From positions 124,001 to 188,000 of the forward strand of contig BOYI01000002.1 in assembly GCA_019651435.1 (NCBI GenBank): a DNA stretch of 64,000 nt, read 5' to 3'. The first letter of the stretch is position 1; each line of letters opens with the position of its first letter. The DNA comes from Pelagibacteraceae bacterium. GTDB lineage: Bacteria > Pseudomonadota > Alphaproteobacteria > HIMB59. The notes beneath the pieces are model-generated. The model worked only from the letters and a program-made list of their open reading frames with translations. It made no database searches and was not told the origin of the DNA. This document shows, one piece after another, positions 51,399 to 56,931 of this stretch. Both the position numbers and the translations under genes were made by a program.

Positions 51399-52817
51399 CT
51401 AAGTTCTTTTGAGTTTTGTTTTTCTTTTTAAATTCAGATCTTCAGGCAAAAGTTGAAATAAGTCATAGAGCACTCTAATGACCACATAAGTAATAATAAA
51501 ACTCATGATGGTGTCACTTAGAAAATGATCACCTTCCATGATTCTTAATAAAGAGATTAGAATAATTGCAGAATAGGCAAAGATATTCCAAGTTTGTTTA
51601 TTAAATATTAATAAAATCGCTAAGGATAATGTGAAAAAAGAAACATCACCTGAAACAAAACTACAATTAGCCTCACAGTAATCAACATTTAACCAAGGAA
51701 TAGTAAAAGGCTGCTCACCTCCAAATACTAAAGTATCATTAGGCCTAGCCCTTCCCCAAAAACTTTTAAAAATTGAATTAACAATTACACCTGTTCCAAG
51801 AACCAAACATGAAAATAAAAATGTCCAATCTCGTAATGGTTTATTCATAATTTTCTCTCCATAAATATATTGTTTCACTGCAGCAGCAATAGGTATAAAA
51901 AAAACTAGAAGCGCCAACAATGGTAAAATCATTTTTCGAATAAAATAAATAAACCAGTCTTGTTCGCTAGCTAAGAATCTTCCGTCTTGACCAAAAAATA
52001 ATCCACTAACTGTGATATCTATATTCGGAAATAAGAAAAAAATAATTGAAAGCGCGAGCATCAAAGTAAGTGTTTTTAAGTAAAAATTGAAGCCAAGATA
52101 AAGTGAAAATAAAGATTTCAGTTTTTCTTCAAGACTTCTGTAAATAAAATTAACATTTTCGTTTGATATTAAATATCCTTGATCGCTTTGAAAAAGTTTA
52201 GATTTTTGAAAAAATTTATCTCTTAGTAAAATGCTAGTAATATATGCAACTAAAGCTCCACCAAATATATCACTTACATAATGAGCACCCACAATAACTC
52301 GGGTAGATGCAATGACGATTGCTATGGTAATTAAAATATTTTTGATTTTAGGAAAAAGAAATATTAGACAAAAAATAAATGCAAAAATCGTTGCGGTGTG
52401 GCCTGATGGAAAAGAATGCCATCGAGAGTCAAAATTAAAAATATCTAAGGTTGTTAAATTATTTGAATGGAACAACGGAGGTCTTGGTCGACCCAAGATA
52501 TGTTTAAAAATTTGAACAGCTATTCCACTTAATAAAATATTAAAAAATATGAATAATGAGATATCACTGATTGTTAAAATAATTTTATTTTTATTTTGAA
52601 TAATTTTTATGACTGCCCAAATTAAAATTGTTGGAACAAAAAAATATAGAGAGTCTCCAAAATGTGTAAGGGTTTCAAATAAAGATTTAGTTTGTGAATT
52701 GATATTATAAAAAAACTTTGAAATAGAGTAATCAAAGAAAAGAAAAACAAGAACTCCTAAGAGGAGATAGATACAAATTGCTTTTTCGTCTTTTTGGAAT
52801 TTAGTAAGAAAATTCAT
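51399..52817 (-). CDS. Integral membrane protein with two PAP2 (type 2 phosphatidic acid phosphatase) domains
   Basis: Domain 1: KHILGRPRP...FPSGHTATIFA...STRVIVGAHYVSDIFGG. Domain 2: KSFWGRARPND...SFVSGDVSFFTLS...RIMEGDHFLSDT. Confidence 0.85.
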   Translation of the reverse strand: MNFLTKFQKDEKAICIYLLLGVLVFLFFDYSISKFFYNINSQTKSLFETLTHFGDSLYFFVPTILIWAVIKIIQNKNKIILTISDISLFIFFNILLSGIAVQIFKHILGRPRPPLFHSNNLTTLDIFNFDSRWHSFPSGHTATIFAFIFCLIFLFPKIKNILITIAIVIASTRVIVGAHYVSDIFGGALVAYITSILLRDKFFQKSKLFQSDQGYLISNENVNFIYRSLEEKLKSLFSLYLGFNFYLKTLTLMLALSIIFFLFPNIDITVSGLFFGQDGRFLASEQDWFIYFIRKMILPLLALLVFFIPIAAAVKQYIYGEKIMNKPLRDWTFLFSCLVLGTGVIVNSIFKSFWGRARPNDTLVFGGEQPFTIPWLNVDYCEANCSFVSGDVSFFTLSLAILLIFNKQTWNIFAYSAIILISLLRIMEGDHFLSDTIMSFIITYVVIRVLYDLFQLLPEDLNLKRKTKLKRT

Positions 52818-54292
52818 TTCTTTATAAAGTTTACATTAATAAAGGATTTTTGATTTAAATCTAATAAAGTTTTATTGATACTTGAGGGGTTATCAATGGG
52901 CGTTTCGTCTAAACTGGTAAAAGCCAATTCTATTTCACAGTCAGGAAAATACGAAGGTTTTAAATTTTTAGGGAAATATAGACTTATTGTTGGATTTTCA
53001 AGATTTGAAATAATTTCGGTTTTATCCAAATCGCAAGATAAATCATCGGTAATCGTTTGTGCGATGCCTTTATGTAAAAACTTACTTTGATAATTAATAG
53101 TAAAAAAACTTAAAGAAATTGAGAGTAGCAGTAAAAAGGAAAAGGTAATTATTTTATAAGACTCAACAAATAACTGTGATTGCATAGAAAATGCAGGATT
53201 CACAAAGCAAATTATTACAATTAATGCATAGAAAAGATAATTGAATTTGGGTATGGCTTCAATATTTGGGTAAAGAGAGGTATCAACATAGATTACAAAA
53301 GCAGGTAGCAATAAAAAACTTAAATAAAAAAGCCTTAACCATTTTAATTCTACAAACTCTAATGTTCGAAATATATAAATCGTTAAAATTGAAAGTATAA
53401 AAATGATTATTGAAAAAATCTGATTATTTAAAAATATGAAAGCCAAAAAAGAGATAGCTATCAACAATAAATATAAAAATAATTCCTTATTCCAATTTAT
53501 TTTTTTCACAAGATTGTAATAGAAGGAAATAATTAAAATACTTATTATAGGTAATAATAATCCTACAATTAGATAAGTTCTTTTGAGTATTTCAGATAAA
53601 CTGAAATTAATTTTAAAAAGTAATTGTTCTCCATATATTTGATCAAGAATGACAAAGATAATGGCTAAGATATAAATAAAAGAAAGATTACTTAAAATAG
53701 CAAATCTTTTATTTTTTTCTATTTTCCAGTCTGATAACTTTAGTATTGATAAAGTTGTTACTATTAATAAAAAAAAATAATTGCCCAGAGATAAGGCGAT
53801 AATACAAAATAGACCTAAGAAAAAACTATTATAAGTTTTTTCTTCGATGAAAAATTTGATTTGAAAATAAAAAATAATTAAAGAAATAAGACCAATAAAT
53901 AAAATTCCATGAAGAGAAAGAAAGCTAATAAAAATTACACCTGTGCATGTAATTGCTGTTAACACGGGAAGGATTTTTAAATCGTAAAATTGTAATTTGA
54001 TAATTTTATATAGAGTGAAAATTAATAAAGAAAAATATATTAAATTTAAAAATCTATAACCATAAAGGGATCTAATTTCATAAGAGTCCAAAATAAGATT
54101 TAGAAAATATGAAAATATATTGTGAACATTAATTGAGTCTCTAAAACTCCATGAGTTTTTATCTACTATTAAATTTAAAATCTGAGTGTCACTTTCAGTT
54201 CCAAATGGAAACAAAAATGCTGTTAAGAAAAGCAAAATAAAGCTACAAGCTAAAAGAAAAAAATAAGGAATATTTGTTAAGATTCGAAACAT
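52814..54292 (-). CDS. Polytopic membrane protein of unknown function (possible GT39/ArnT-like topology)
   Basis: 492 aa, many TM helices, ATGA overlap with the double-PAP2 gene. Confidence 0.6.
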   Translation of the reverse strand: MFRILTNIPYFFLLACSFILLFLTAFLFPFGTESDTQILNLIVDKNSWSFRDSINVHNIFSYFLNLILDSYEIRSLYGYRFLNLIYFSLLIFTLYKIIKLQFYDLKILPVLTAITCTGVIFISFLSLHGILFIGLISLIIFYFQIKFFIEEKTYNSFFLGLFCIIALSLGNYFFLLIVTTLSILKLSDWKIEKNKRFAILSNLSFIYILAIIFVILDQIYGEQLLFKINFSLSEILKRTYLIVGLLLPIISILIISFYYNLVKKINWNKELFLYLLLIAISFLAFIFLNNQIFSIIIFILSILTIYIFRTLEFVELKWLRLFYLSFLLLPAFVIYVDTSLYPNIEAIPKFNYLFYALIVIICFVNPAFSMQSQLFVESYKIITFSFLLLLSISLSFFTINYQSKFLHKGIAQTITDDLSCDLDKTEIISNLENPTISLYFPKNLKPSYFPDCEIELAFTSLDETPIDNPSSINKTLLDLNQKSFINVNFIKK

Positions 54293-54368
54293 CTAAGCTA
54301 ATTTAATCACTAGGTTTAGTAGCATAAGAAATCATATAGTTCTATATATAGTGGATATTTCAATTTTC

Positions 54369-54397
54369 TTGATGTTGTTTTTTCCCCAAATTATAAT
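54369..54397 (+). promoter_or_regulatory. Sigma70-type promoter TTGATG-N17-TATAAT
   Basis: TTGATG at 54369-54374, TATAAT at 54392-54397, 17-nt spacer. Confidence 0.6.
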
Positions 54398-54403
54398 GAG
54401 TTT

Positions 54404-54510
54404 AAGAGAGAAAATCTCTATTTTTACAGCCTTATAGAAGTGGCTTTTTTCTTAGTGGGTCACTTCTTTCTTAAAAGGGTTAGGACAAATTGTTCTAACC
54501 CTTTTATTAT
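54404..54510 (+). ncRNA. Candidate small RNA or leader/attenuator
   Basis: Follows a promoter; hairpins AGAGA-GAAAA-TCTCT (54405-54419) and AGAAGTG/CACTTCT (54436-42/54461-67); ends in intrinsic-terminator-like stem. Confidence 0.5.
54473..54505 (+). terminator. Intrinsic-terminator-like hairpin
   Basis: AAAAGGGTTAG-gacaaattgtt-CTAACCCTTTT, perfect 11-bp arms with A/U-tracts in the stem. Confidence 0.75.
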
Positions 54511-54530
54511 TTCTATATTATCCTTTTTTT

Positions 54531-54660
54531 ATGCTGAAATTAGCTTTCATGGTATTATTTTTTTTTCTTAGGATACTTCTTAGCTGATACAAAATTGGTA
54601 GAAATTCCTTTTAAGGATATGCCGTATATAGAAAAACTTTATGAGGTGGTAGATGATTAA
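54531..54660 (+). CDS. Possible small membrane protein (about 42 aa) in front of the aminotransferase
   Basis: Removing one T from the T9 run gives MLKLAFMVLFFFLGYFLADTKLVEIPFKDMPYIEKLYEVVDD*, ending in the aminotransferase start (ATGATTAA). Confidence 0.35.
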
Positions 54661-55979
54661 TACAGATAGCGTTCTTCACGGTTTTACAGATCTTAAAAAC
54701 TTAGACTCATTGGGCCCAATAGTCTTAAATCAAGCAAAAGGAATTTATGTATACGATCAAGATGGAAAAAATATCTTGATGCTAATTCTGGTTTATGGAA
54801 TTCGTAGTTGGTTTTGATCATCCTAGAATGATTGAGACTGCCAAAAACAATATGAAAAGTTTTCTGGGTATCATTCTTTTTTGGAAGAATTTCTGAACCT
54901 GCAGTGCAACTTGCCGATAAGCTTATTGAAATTTCTCCTTTGATAGTGGGAAAGTCTTTTTACAAACTCTGGTTCAGAAGCTAATGATACAACAGTTAAA
55001 CTTTTATGGTTTATTAATCGTCGTAAAGGAAAACCCGATCGAAGAAAAATAATTACTCGCATCAACTCTTATCATGGTGTGACCGCTGTTTCGCATCTAT
55101 GACAGGAAGCCTTATAATAGTGAATTTGGTCTTCCATTAGATGGTTTTTACATGCAGCTTGCCCCATTATTGGAAATATTCTGAGCAAAATGAAAGCGAA
55201 GAAGAATTTACAAAACGAATGGGTGAAGATCTAGAAAATTTAATTCAAAAGGAAGGGGCAGATACTATTGCAGGATTTTTGCCGAGCCAGTGATGGGCGC
55301 AGGTGGAGTTATTCCGCCTTCTCAAGGATACTTCGATGTTGTTCAAAAATTTTAAATAAATACGATATACCTTTCATTGCTGATGAAGTCATATGTGGCT
55401 TTGGTCGTACTGGAAATCTTTGGGGCTCTCAGACTTATAATATTCAACCTGATATTTTAATCGCATCTAAATGCATTACCTCAGGCTTTTTTCCTTTAGG
55501 CGCTGTCATACTAGGAGAGAAAATGACCCAAGAAATGATGGAAGCTTCATATAAAGCCGAGGAATTCTTCCACGGATTCACGGCAGGTGGGCATCCTGTA
55601 GGTTGCGCTCTAGCCCTTGAGGCTATCGATATCATTATCAATGAAAAATGATTGAGAATGTTCGAAATTTAGAACCCATATTTATGGGAGGTTTAAAAAT
55701 TTGAAGAGCTTGAATTTATCGGTGAGGCTAGAGGTATTGGTCTAATGGGCGCCCTAGAAATGGTCCATGATAAAAAACTAAAACACCTTTGATGGATCTA
55801 TCTCGATTGGTGAGCGAGTAGCTAATCAATGTATTGAGAATGGATTAATCTGTAGACCTTTAGGCCTCATTGTTCTTTGTCCTCCTTTTATTACCACAGA
55901 GGATGAAATGGGAATAATTTTCGAAACGCTAGATAAGACGCTAAGAAAAGTTTTTGACGAAGTTAAATCTCTAGGATAA
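54653..55979 (+). CDS. Class III (PLP) aminotransferase, multiple frameshifts
   Basis: MINTDSVLHGFTDLKNLDSLGPIVLNQAKGIYVYDQDGKN; VSFTNSGSEAND-type motif; FIADEVICGFGRTGNLWGSQTYNIQPDILIASKCITSGFFPLGAVI. Confidence 0.82.
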
Positions 55980-56931
55980 CGGAACCGGTCGTTTTTCTAT
56001 TTTCAATATCTGTATGTACTTGAGCGACATTCTCAAGAGGATACTTAGTGACTTGATCTAGTTTAACTTTCTCATTGCTTATCAATTCAAATAATTCTGC
56101 ACTGGCATTTTCCAACCAATTTCGATTAGCATAAAAATGAAACAAAGTTGGGCGAGTGAGGTGAAAAGAGCCAAAGGCTAAATCTGTCATCTGTAAATCT
56201 GTGTATGCGCCTGATGACTGACCAAAGCTGACAACTGTTCCATGACGCTTTAGAGCTTTAAACGAATTGAACATTGTATCTTTACCAACACTATCATAAA
56301 CAACATCAACCCTGATTGGTTTGTAATTTCTTGAACTCTTTGTAAAAAGTCTTCATTGGAGTAGTTAATTGTTTCCCATAACCATGATCTTTGGCTAAAT
56401 TGCATTTATCGTCACTTCCTGCAGTACCAATAGTCTTAGCACCTAAAACTTGCATCCATTGACCCGCGATTAATCCAACACCGCCAGCAGCAGCATGAAA
56501 CAAAACCGTATGATGACTCTTGACTTCAAAACTATCTTTTAAAAGGTATCGGACAGTTAAACCTTTCAGCATTGCGGCTGCGGCTTGATCAAAAGAAATA
56601 GCATCGGGAATTCTCACCACTAAATTAGCATCTAAAATTCGGTGTGTGGCATAAGCATTGTTGGCTTGTGCGTAAGCAACTCGATCTCCTACGCGTAAAT
56701 TGACAACGTCACTACCGACCGCTTCGATAATGCCGGCTCCCTCAGAGCCTAGGACGAGGTTATTTTCTTGAGGCCAAGGGTAGAGTCCTTTTCTAAAATA
56801 AATATCAATAAAATTTACACCAATTGAATGATTTTTAATTAAACTTGATTGGGTAGAATTTCTGAAATTTCAAATTCTTTTTTTTGAAGAACGCTGATAT
56901 CGCCAGGTTTGGTTGCTACAATTGAATACAT
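55963..56931 (-). CDS. Zinc-type quinone oxidoreductase (NADPH:quinone reductase), frameshifted
   Basis: ISFDQAAAAMLKGLTVRYLLKDSF, VLFHAAAGGVGLIAGQWMQVLGAKTIGTAGS. Confidence 0.85.

Follow-up and report, generated by a model that had tools for sequence, protein, structure and literature searches.

The long region between two divergently oriented genes of a marine HIMB59 bacterium contains a promoter-like sequence followed at a short distance by potential hairpins, for which a sequence-only reading had offered two explanations, i.e. an independent small RNA (sRNA) of roughly 105 nt or an attenuated leader controlling a small ORF and a class III aminotransferase gene downstream. The question raised by this locus is which of the two applies and, if the RNA is independent, on what it might act.

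Genomes compared and features of the locus

The window, i.e. the whole 64,000 nt stretch of DNA that was analysed, comprises positions 124001–188000 of contig C2 from an assembly totalling 1.35 Mb. Its close relatives include the Pelagibacteraceae MAG CP.5 and the single cell AG-891-G06, the latter being a genome of the HIMB59 clade (PMC10734472). The reference throughout was G001, the sole complete member of the genus (1,410,127 bases). Indels are present in the window assembly, as both the 42 aa ORF and the aminotransferase gene downstream of the RNA are broken here and intact in G001, and an apparent lack of ORFs in the window is therefore to be taken cautiously. Further genes of the window look fragmented too, e.g. 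at 55963–56620 on the minus strand, and sequencing indels are the likely cause of such fragmentation. The features of the locus are collected in Table 1.

Table 1. Features in and around the predicted RNA gene, numbered from the first base of the window
Feature	Position	Strand	Basis or remark
Divergent membrane protein, 492 aa, no family match	52814..54292	-	ORF
Upstream box TTTAGTAGCATA	54315..54326	.	Conserved in core-genus alignment, neighbours variable
Upstream element TTCTATATATAGTGGATATTTCAATTTTC directly 5' of -35	54340..54368	+	Identity 74–92% in core
Promoter: -35 TTGATG (54369–54374), 17 nt spacer, -10 TATAAT (54392–54397)	54369..54397	+	Core-genus conservation
sRNA gene, about 105–110 nt, predicted ends	54404..54512	+	Fold z -6.15; covariance model 129.9 bits in window; 46/52 genus genomes
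Hairpin H1, AGAGA/UCUCU	54405..54419	+	Compensatory changes in G008 and G007
Hairpin H2, exposed U-rich loop	54436..54467	+	G-C to A-U stem change in G007
Near-invariant core GGCUUUUUUCUUAGUGG, candidate antisense seed for histone H1-like mRNA	54442..54458	+	Complementary to codon-frozen site
Terminator hairpin H3, then U-rich tail	54472..54506	+	Several pairs changed on both sides
Small membrane-type ORF, 42 aa, conserved	54531..54660	+	Intact in G001; protein-type conservation; one extra T breaks frame here
Class III aminotransferase (NCBIfam PRK06105), with frameshift in the window assembly	54653..55979	+	Intact 448 aa orthologue in G001

A conserved, structured RNA

Judged from comparison across genomes, the locus encodes a strongly conserved small RNA of about 105 nt that belongs to marine HIMB59 bacteria, which are relatives of SAR11. 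A DNA search showed the region to be present in nearly all genomes of the genus, and a covariance model made from 22 sequences matched the RNA at the same locus in 46 of 52 genus genomes and in all ten of those with a completeness of at least 90%, in a single copy per genome. Comparison of orthologous intergenic regions and a cmsearch-type search, which the sequence-only reading had named as ways of checking it, thus both spoke in its favour, the RNA being conserved and its stems covarying in relatives. The model did not find the RNA in the sister family within the order, where the sole match, in G066, proved on alignment to be the rplL terminator region. Among about 380 genomes elsewhere in the class only two (G273 and G318) scored, and their matches were rejected on alignment as terminator-like sequences without the core; a second match in G004, likewise without the core, was also rejected. 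No Rfam 15 family reached its gathering threshold in the region, so that membership of these families was rejected; the best sub-threshold match, to rseX (29.6 against 50), covers only 54464–54530, i.e. the terminator region and beyond. We found no earlier account of the RNA in the literature searched, in which coverage of subscription papers was limited.

The predicted RNA folds at -38.5 kcal/mol compared with -19.9 ± 3.0 kcal/mol for shuffled sequences (z -6.15), none of 200 shuffles being as good. Two hairpins and a perfect 11 bp terminator-like stem had been described from the sequence; the fold contains H1, H2 and a terminator stem that is indeed present and is larger than the 11 bp claimed, H3 having 16 pairs (one G-U included), a 3 nt loop and a U-rich tail on its 3' side. 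Each of the three stems covaries. In H1, AGAGA/UCUCU is replaced by AGGAU/AUCCU in G008 and by AGGUA/UAUCU in G007; a G-C pair of the H2 stem has become A-U in G007; and in H3 there are changes from U-A to C-G, from C-G to G-C and from G-C to A-U. Automatic counting found two-sided changes at six pairs, a number reached by none of 500 shuffles and itself lowered by misalignment of H1 and H2 in the three deepest genomes. At position 54440, in the H2 stem, most core genomes have a C·A mismatch, and the window and three deep-branch genomes have U-A. In the core lineages the H2 core is 95–100% identical to that of G001 and the upstream promoter block 74–92%, compared with 28–53% at the fourfold-degenerate sites of the flanking genes.

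The promoter described in the sequence-only reading, TTGATG-N17-TATAAT, is present; it is conserved in the core genus and shows small changes in the deep branches. The absence of a good ORF inside the unit is likewise confirmed, since comparison of relatives revealed no conserved ORF within the RNA, and a 13 aa leader peptide starting from the ATG at 54398 was rejected because this ATG is not conserved. Pattern scans by themselves are at chance level in such AT-rich DNA (23 promoter patterns found and 22.9 expected; two terminator patterns found and 2.3 expected), as they would be if a promoter arisen by chance preceded an ordinary terminator or a repeat without any function as RNA. That explanation is nevertheless scarcely credible in view of the covariation, the stability of the fold, the single copy per genome and a conservation far above that of the saturated fourfold sites. 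It is because of conservation and covariation, and not of promoter or terminator patterns, that the RNA stands above chance.

Two conserved boxes, TTTAGTAGCATA and TTCTATATATWGTGG, lie between the divergent promoters (54315–54368). The former is possibly a regulator site or a piece of the divergent gene's promoter, and TTCTATATATAGTGGATATTTCAATTTTC possibly an UP element or an activator site; TTCTATATATWGTGG looks by eye like a palindromic operator of the NrdR kind. Nothing close to the full upstream element recurs elsewhere in the complete G001 genome, and the idea of an upstream regulatory motif shared with other G001 loci was dropped.

Independent sRNA or leader

The RNA is best read, from its sequence features, as an independently transcribed sRNA in preference to a leader. 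It has its own promoter with conserved -35 and -10 elements, an intrinsic terminator (H3 and the U-rich tail), no conserved ORF inside and a conserved secondary structure, as the z-score and the six two-sided pairs indicate. The alternative is an attenuator, i.e. a leader of the 42 aa ORF, and usually also of the aminotransferase gene that this ORF overlaps, in which some signal relieves termination at H3. The end of H3 lies about 25 nt 5' of the conserved small ORF, which is never parted from the RNA (the two occur in the same genomes, one contig-cut case apart), and in the core group the 5' arm of H3 can form an alternative 6 bp AGCCUU/AGGGUU helix when its 3' arm is missing. However, this helix is weak, includes several G-U pairs and is shifted in register in the deep branch, and beyond it no conserved, mutually exclusive antiterminator was found. 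Furthermore, conservation is highest in the H2 loop and not in an antiterminator strand, and in G017, where seven inserted ORFs put the aminotransferase gene at a distance of about 6 kb, the RNA and the 42 aa ORF remain together. We regard an attenuator as quite improbable, keeping a leader role for the 42 aa ORF as a rival because this ORF never leaves the RNA. The sRNA half of what had been proposed from the sequence is supported by the promoter, three hairpins, terminator, purifying selection and a site in a distant mRNA, to which we turn below, and the leader half is disfavoured by G017 and the weakness of the helix.

A putative target in a histone H1-like mRNA

Apart from that with its own locus, the best G001 duplex of the H2 loop, GCGGCUUUUUUCUUAGUGGGC, is with a gene at 284799–285234 (-32.3 kcal/mol), about 24.5 kb from the RNA gene, which lies at 260270–260383 of G001. 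This gene ranks first of 1,422 G001 coding sequences for duplex formation with the loop (z -6.0), its start region ranks second, and a 15-base site pattern is found at a similar distance from the RNA in many genomes. The gene encodes a Lys/Ala/Pro repeat protein of 144 aa (MAVKKKKAAKKKAAPKKK...), which matches no Pfam family and in NCBIfam resembles 'histone H1-like DNA-binding protein' only weakly (E 0.34). Its mRNA contains an internal site of 19 bp at about codon 50 (CCACTAAGAAAAAAGCTGC in G001) and a start-proximal site at about codons 5–9 (AAGAAAAAAGCTGC; about 14 bp counting G-U pairs), the latter beside a conserved AAGGAGG Shine–Dalgarno sequence. Nearly all core genomes retain the start-proximal AAG A(A/G)A AAA GCT GC, exceptions being AAA as first codon in L210 and AAG as third Lys codon in L184, and the exact TIR sequence of the start region occurs only in the RNA-bearing family. 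A target scan with the linker UUUUUACAGCCUUAUAG gave several like matches, which were set aside as none was outstanding. The gene giving the top start-region duplex in G001, encoding a CarD-like protein, was rejected as a conserved target, as its codons drift. This protein (280644–281367 of G001, minus strand) carries an N-terminal tail rich in Lys and Thr, which differs among genomes in both length and codons.

When considering such complementarity, it is important that Lys codons alone can pair with a U-rich loop. For this reason orthologues of the H1-like gene were fetched via the neighbouring helicase gene, not via the site, and the fixity of codons was asked for. Codons -4 to +4 of the internal site, AAG AAA AAA GCC ACT AAG AAA AAA GCT, are synonymously fixed: identity in 27 core genomes is 0.93–1.0, compared with 0.58 and 0.48 just outside, and in nine lineage representatives it is 1.0 for the block against a mean of 0.57 over 20 flanking codons (permutation P<1e-5; Mann–Whitney P=1e-4). 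The invariant loop is complementary to the last six of these codons, and a shorter second copy of the loop complement, AAGAAAAAAGCC, lies in the first four. Variants with K-to-R replacement (AGA) retain G-U pairing. In the Lys-rich start region of the CarD-like gene, which served as control, codons drift freely; in the sister family an H1-like gene lay beside the helicase in only one of 30 loci, too few to inform on the frozen site. As to individual genomes, G008 and G002 keep the core ACT AAG A(A/G)A AAA GCT, and the absence of the ATKKKA site from G007, which alone has a loop change, from UUAGUGG to UUAAUGG, speaks for the pairing. Against it count one mismatch within the match in G002, where both partners have changed, the absence of the repeat stretch holding the internal site from G003 and G019, and two synonymous changes found at this site in G038.

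These data suggest, with a probability that we put at about 0.6, that the RNA is a trans-acting sRNA whose H2 loop pairs with the H1-like mRNA and so tunes a nucleoid protein; regulation of this mRNA is probable as the loop matches a codon-frozen stretch of the message. It is also conceivable, though unlikely, that the RNA is a conserved independent sRNA acting on other mRNAs or by protein binding, the frozen codons having some other cause. Matches between a U-rich loop and a Lys-rich repeat gene are common under single-gene synonymous shuffling (shuffles of single genes often match the duplex energy, and Watson–Crick-only per-genome rates are mostly about 1–13%), and start-proximal codons are often conserved for different reasons. 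Single-gene complementarity being thus unremarkable, the argument for the H1-like mRNA as target rests on cross-lineage codon conservation, and against any other cause stands the fact that the frozen internal block, including the uncommon codon GCC, is the complement of the invariant loop with codons drifting on both sides.

The conservation and structure of the RNA, its complementarity to the distant mRNA, including first rank in G001, and the codon constraint at the internal site were all established by computation; for the proposed pairing the support is comparative, and strong. We infer transcription, pairing in the cell and the direction of the effect, as well as a signal controlling the RNA. 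In our working model, H1 is followed by a single-stranded linker, by H2 with its exposed seed loop and by the H3 terminator, and the H2 loop, GCGGCUUUUUUCUUAGUGG, would base-pair with the H1-like mRNA. The loop is predicted to be mostly unpaired, costing about 3.5 kcal/mol to open, and pairing may be initiated by its exposed 10–13 nt, after which the stem would open to allow up to 19 bp; the cost of opening H2 fully, about 8–10 kcal/mol, speaks against the model. By analogy with other sRNAs, a duplex at codons 5–9 would interfere with initiation, and one at about codon 50 would halt ribosomes or bring in RNases, the most likely outcome being less translation initiation and/or mRNA decay. Hfq (PF17209) was found in none of 16 genus genomes, control genomes being positive, and complete G001 gave no significant tblastn match to it; pairing is therefore probably Hfq-independent, with which its length is in line, though the missing Hfq also counts among the points against the proposal.

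Relation to known systems

The closest parallel is IhtA of Chlamydia, which represses the histone-like hctA (Hc1) by means of a 7 nt loop over the AUG (PMC4355289; PMC3469542). Both are small RNAs with three stem-loops, one loop being directed, here putatively, against the message for a small, basic nucleoid protein of the histone H1-like type. However, IhtA uses loop 1, with 6–7 nt over the AUG, whereas the HIMB59 RNA would use loop 2, with 14 nt at codons 5–9 and up to 19 nt at about codon 50, so that its predicted pairing lies 3' of the AUG and not over the start codon; moreover, the bacteria belong to another phylum and the HIMB59 protein is a Lys/Ala repeat without Pfam match. What we propose from this likeness, drawn from descriptions, is a functional analogue and not a homologue. 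Pairing within a coding sequence, as proposed here, has a precedent in MicC, RybB and SdsR, which bind the ompD coding sequence (PMC4911921), yet these RNAs use Hfq, of which the searched genomes of the HIMB59 genus gave no match, and the site here is embedded in repeats with frozen codons. Candidate structured RNAs, the pntA-upstream and SAR11_0636 motifs, have been reported from Candidatus Pelagibacter ubique (PMC2704228). They too are conserved, lie between genes and come from marine alphaproteobacteria with streamlined genomes, and the pntA motif also has two serial stems with the second loop conserved; by description they are set apart from the HIMB59 RNA by their other gene context.

On balance we lean towards an undescribed sRNA–target pair that works without Hfq, whose loop co-evolves with frozen repeat codons and which is independent of IhtA–hctA. 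If this is true, sRNA control of histone-like proteins arose at least twice. Cells of the HIMB59/SAR11 type have tiny genomes with few regulators and, in this genus, apparently no Hfq. In such cells a conserved RNA whose target has evolutionary support would offer a testable case of nucleoid-protein control in abundant ocean bacteria, parallel to that in Chlamydia. The freezing of synonymous sites in a repetitive, low-complexity gene can, furthermore, expose an sRNA site.

Neighbouring genes

The 42 aa protein, MLKLxFMVxFFFLGYFLADTxLVEIPF..., has a hydrophobic N-terminus, is found genus-wide and has no family match. The G017 insert that parts the aminotransferase gene from the small ORF (L159, 414–7107) contains, named by eye, a putrescine/spermidine-type ABC transporter operon and glycosyltransferase-like, cupin-like and FAD oxidoreductase ORFs, and hints at polyamines as substrates of the aminotransferase.
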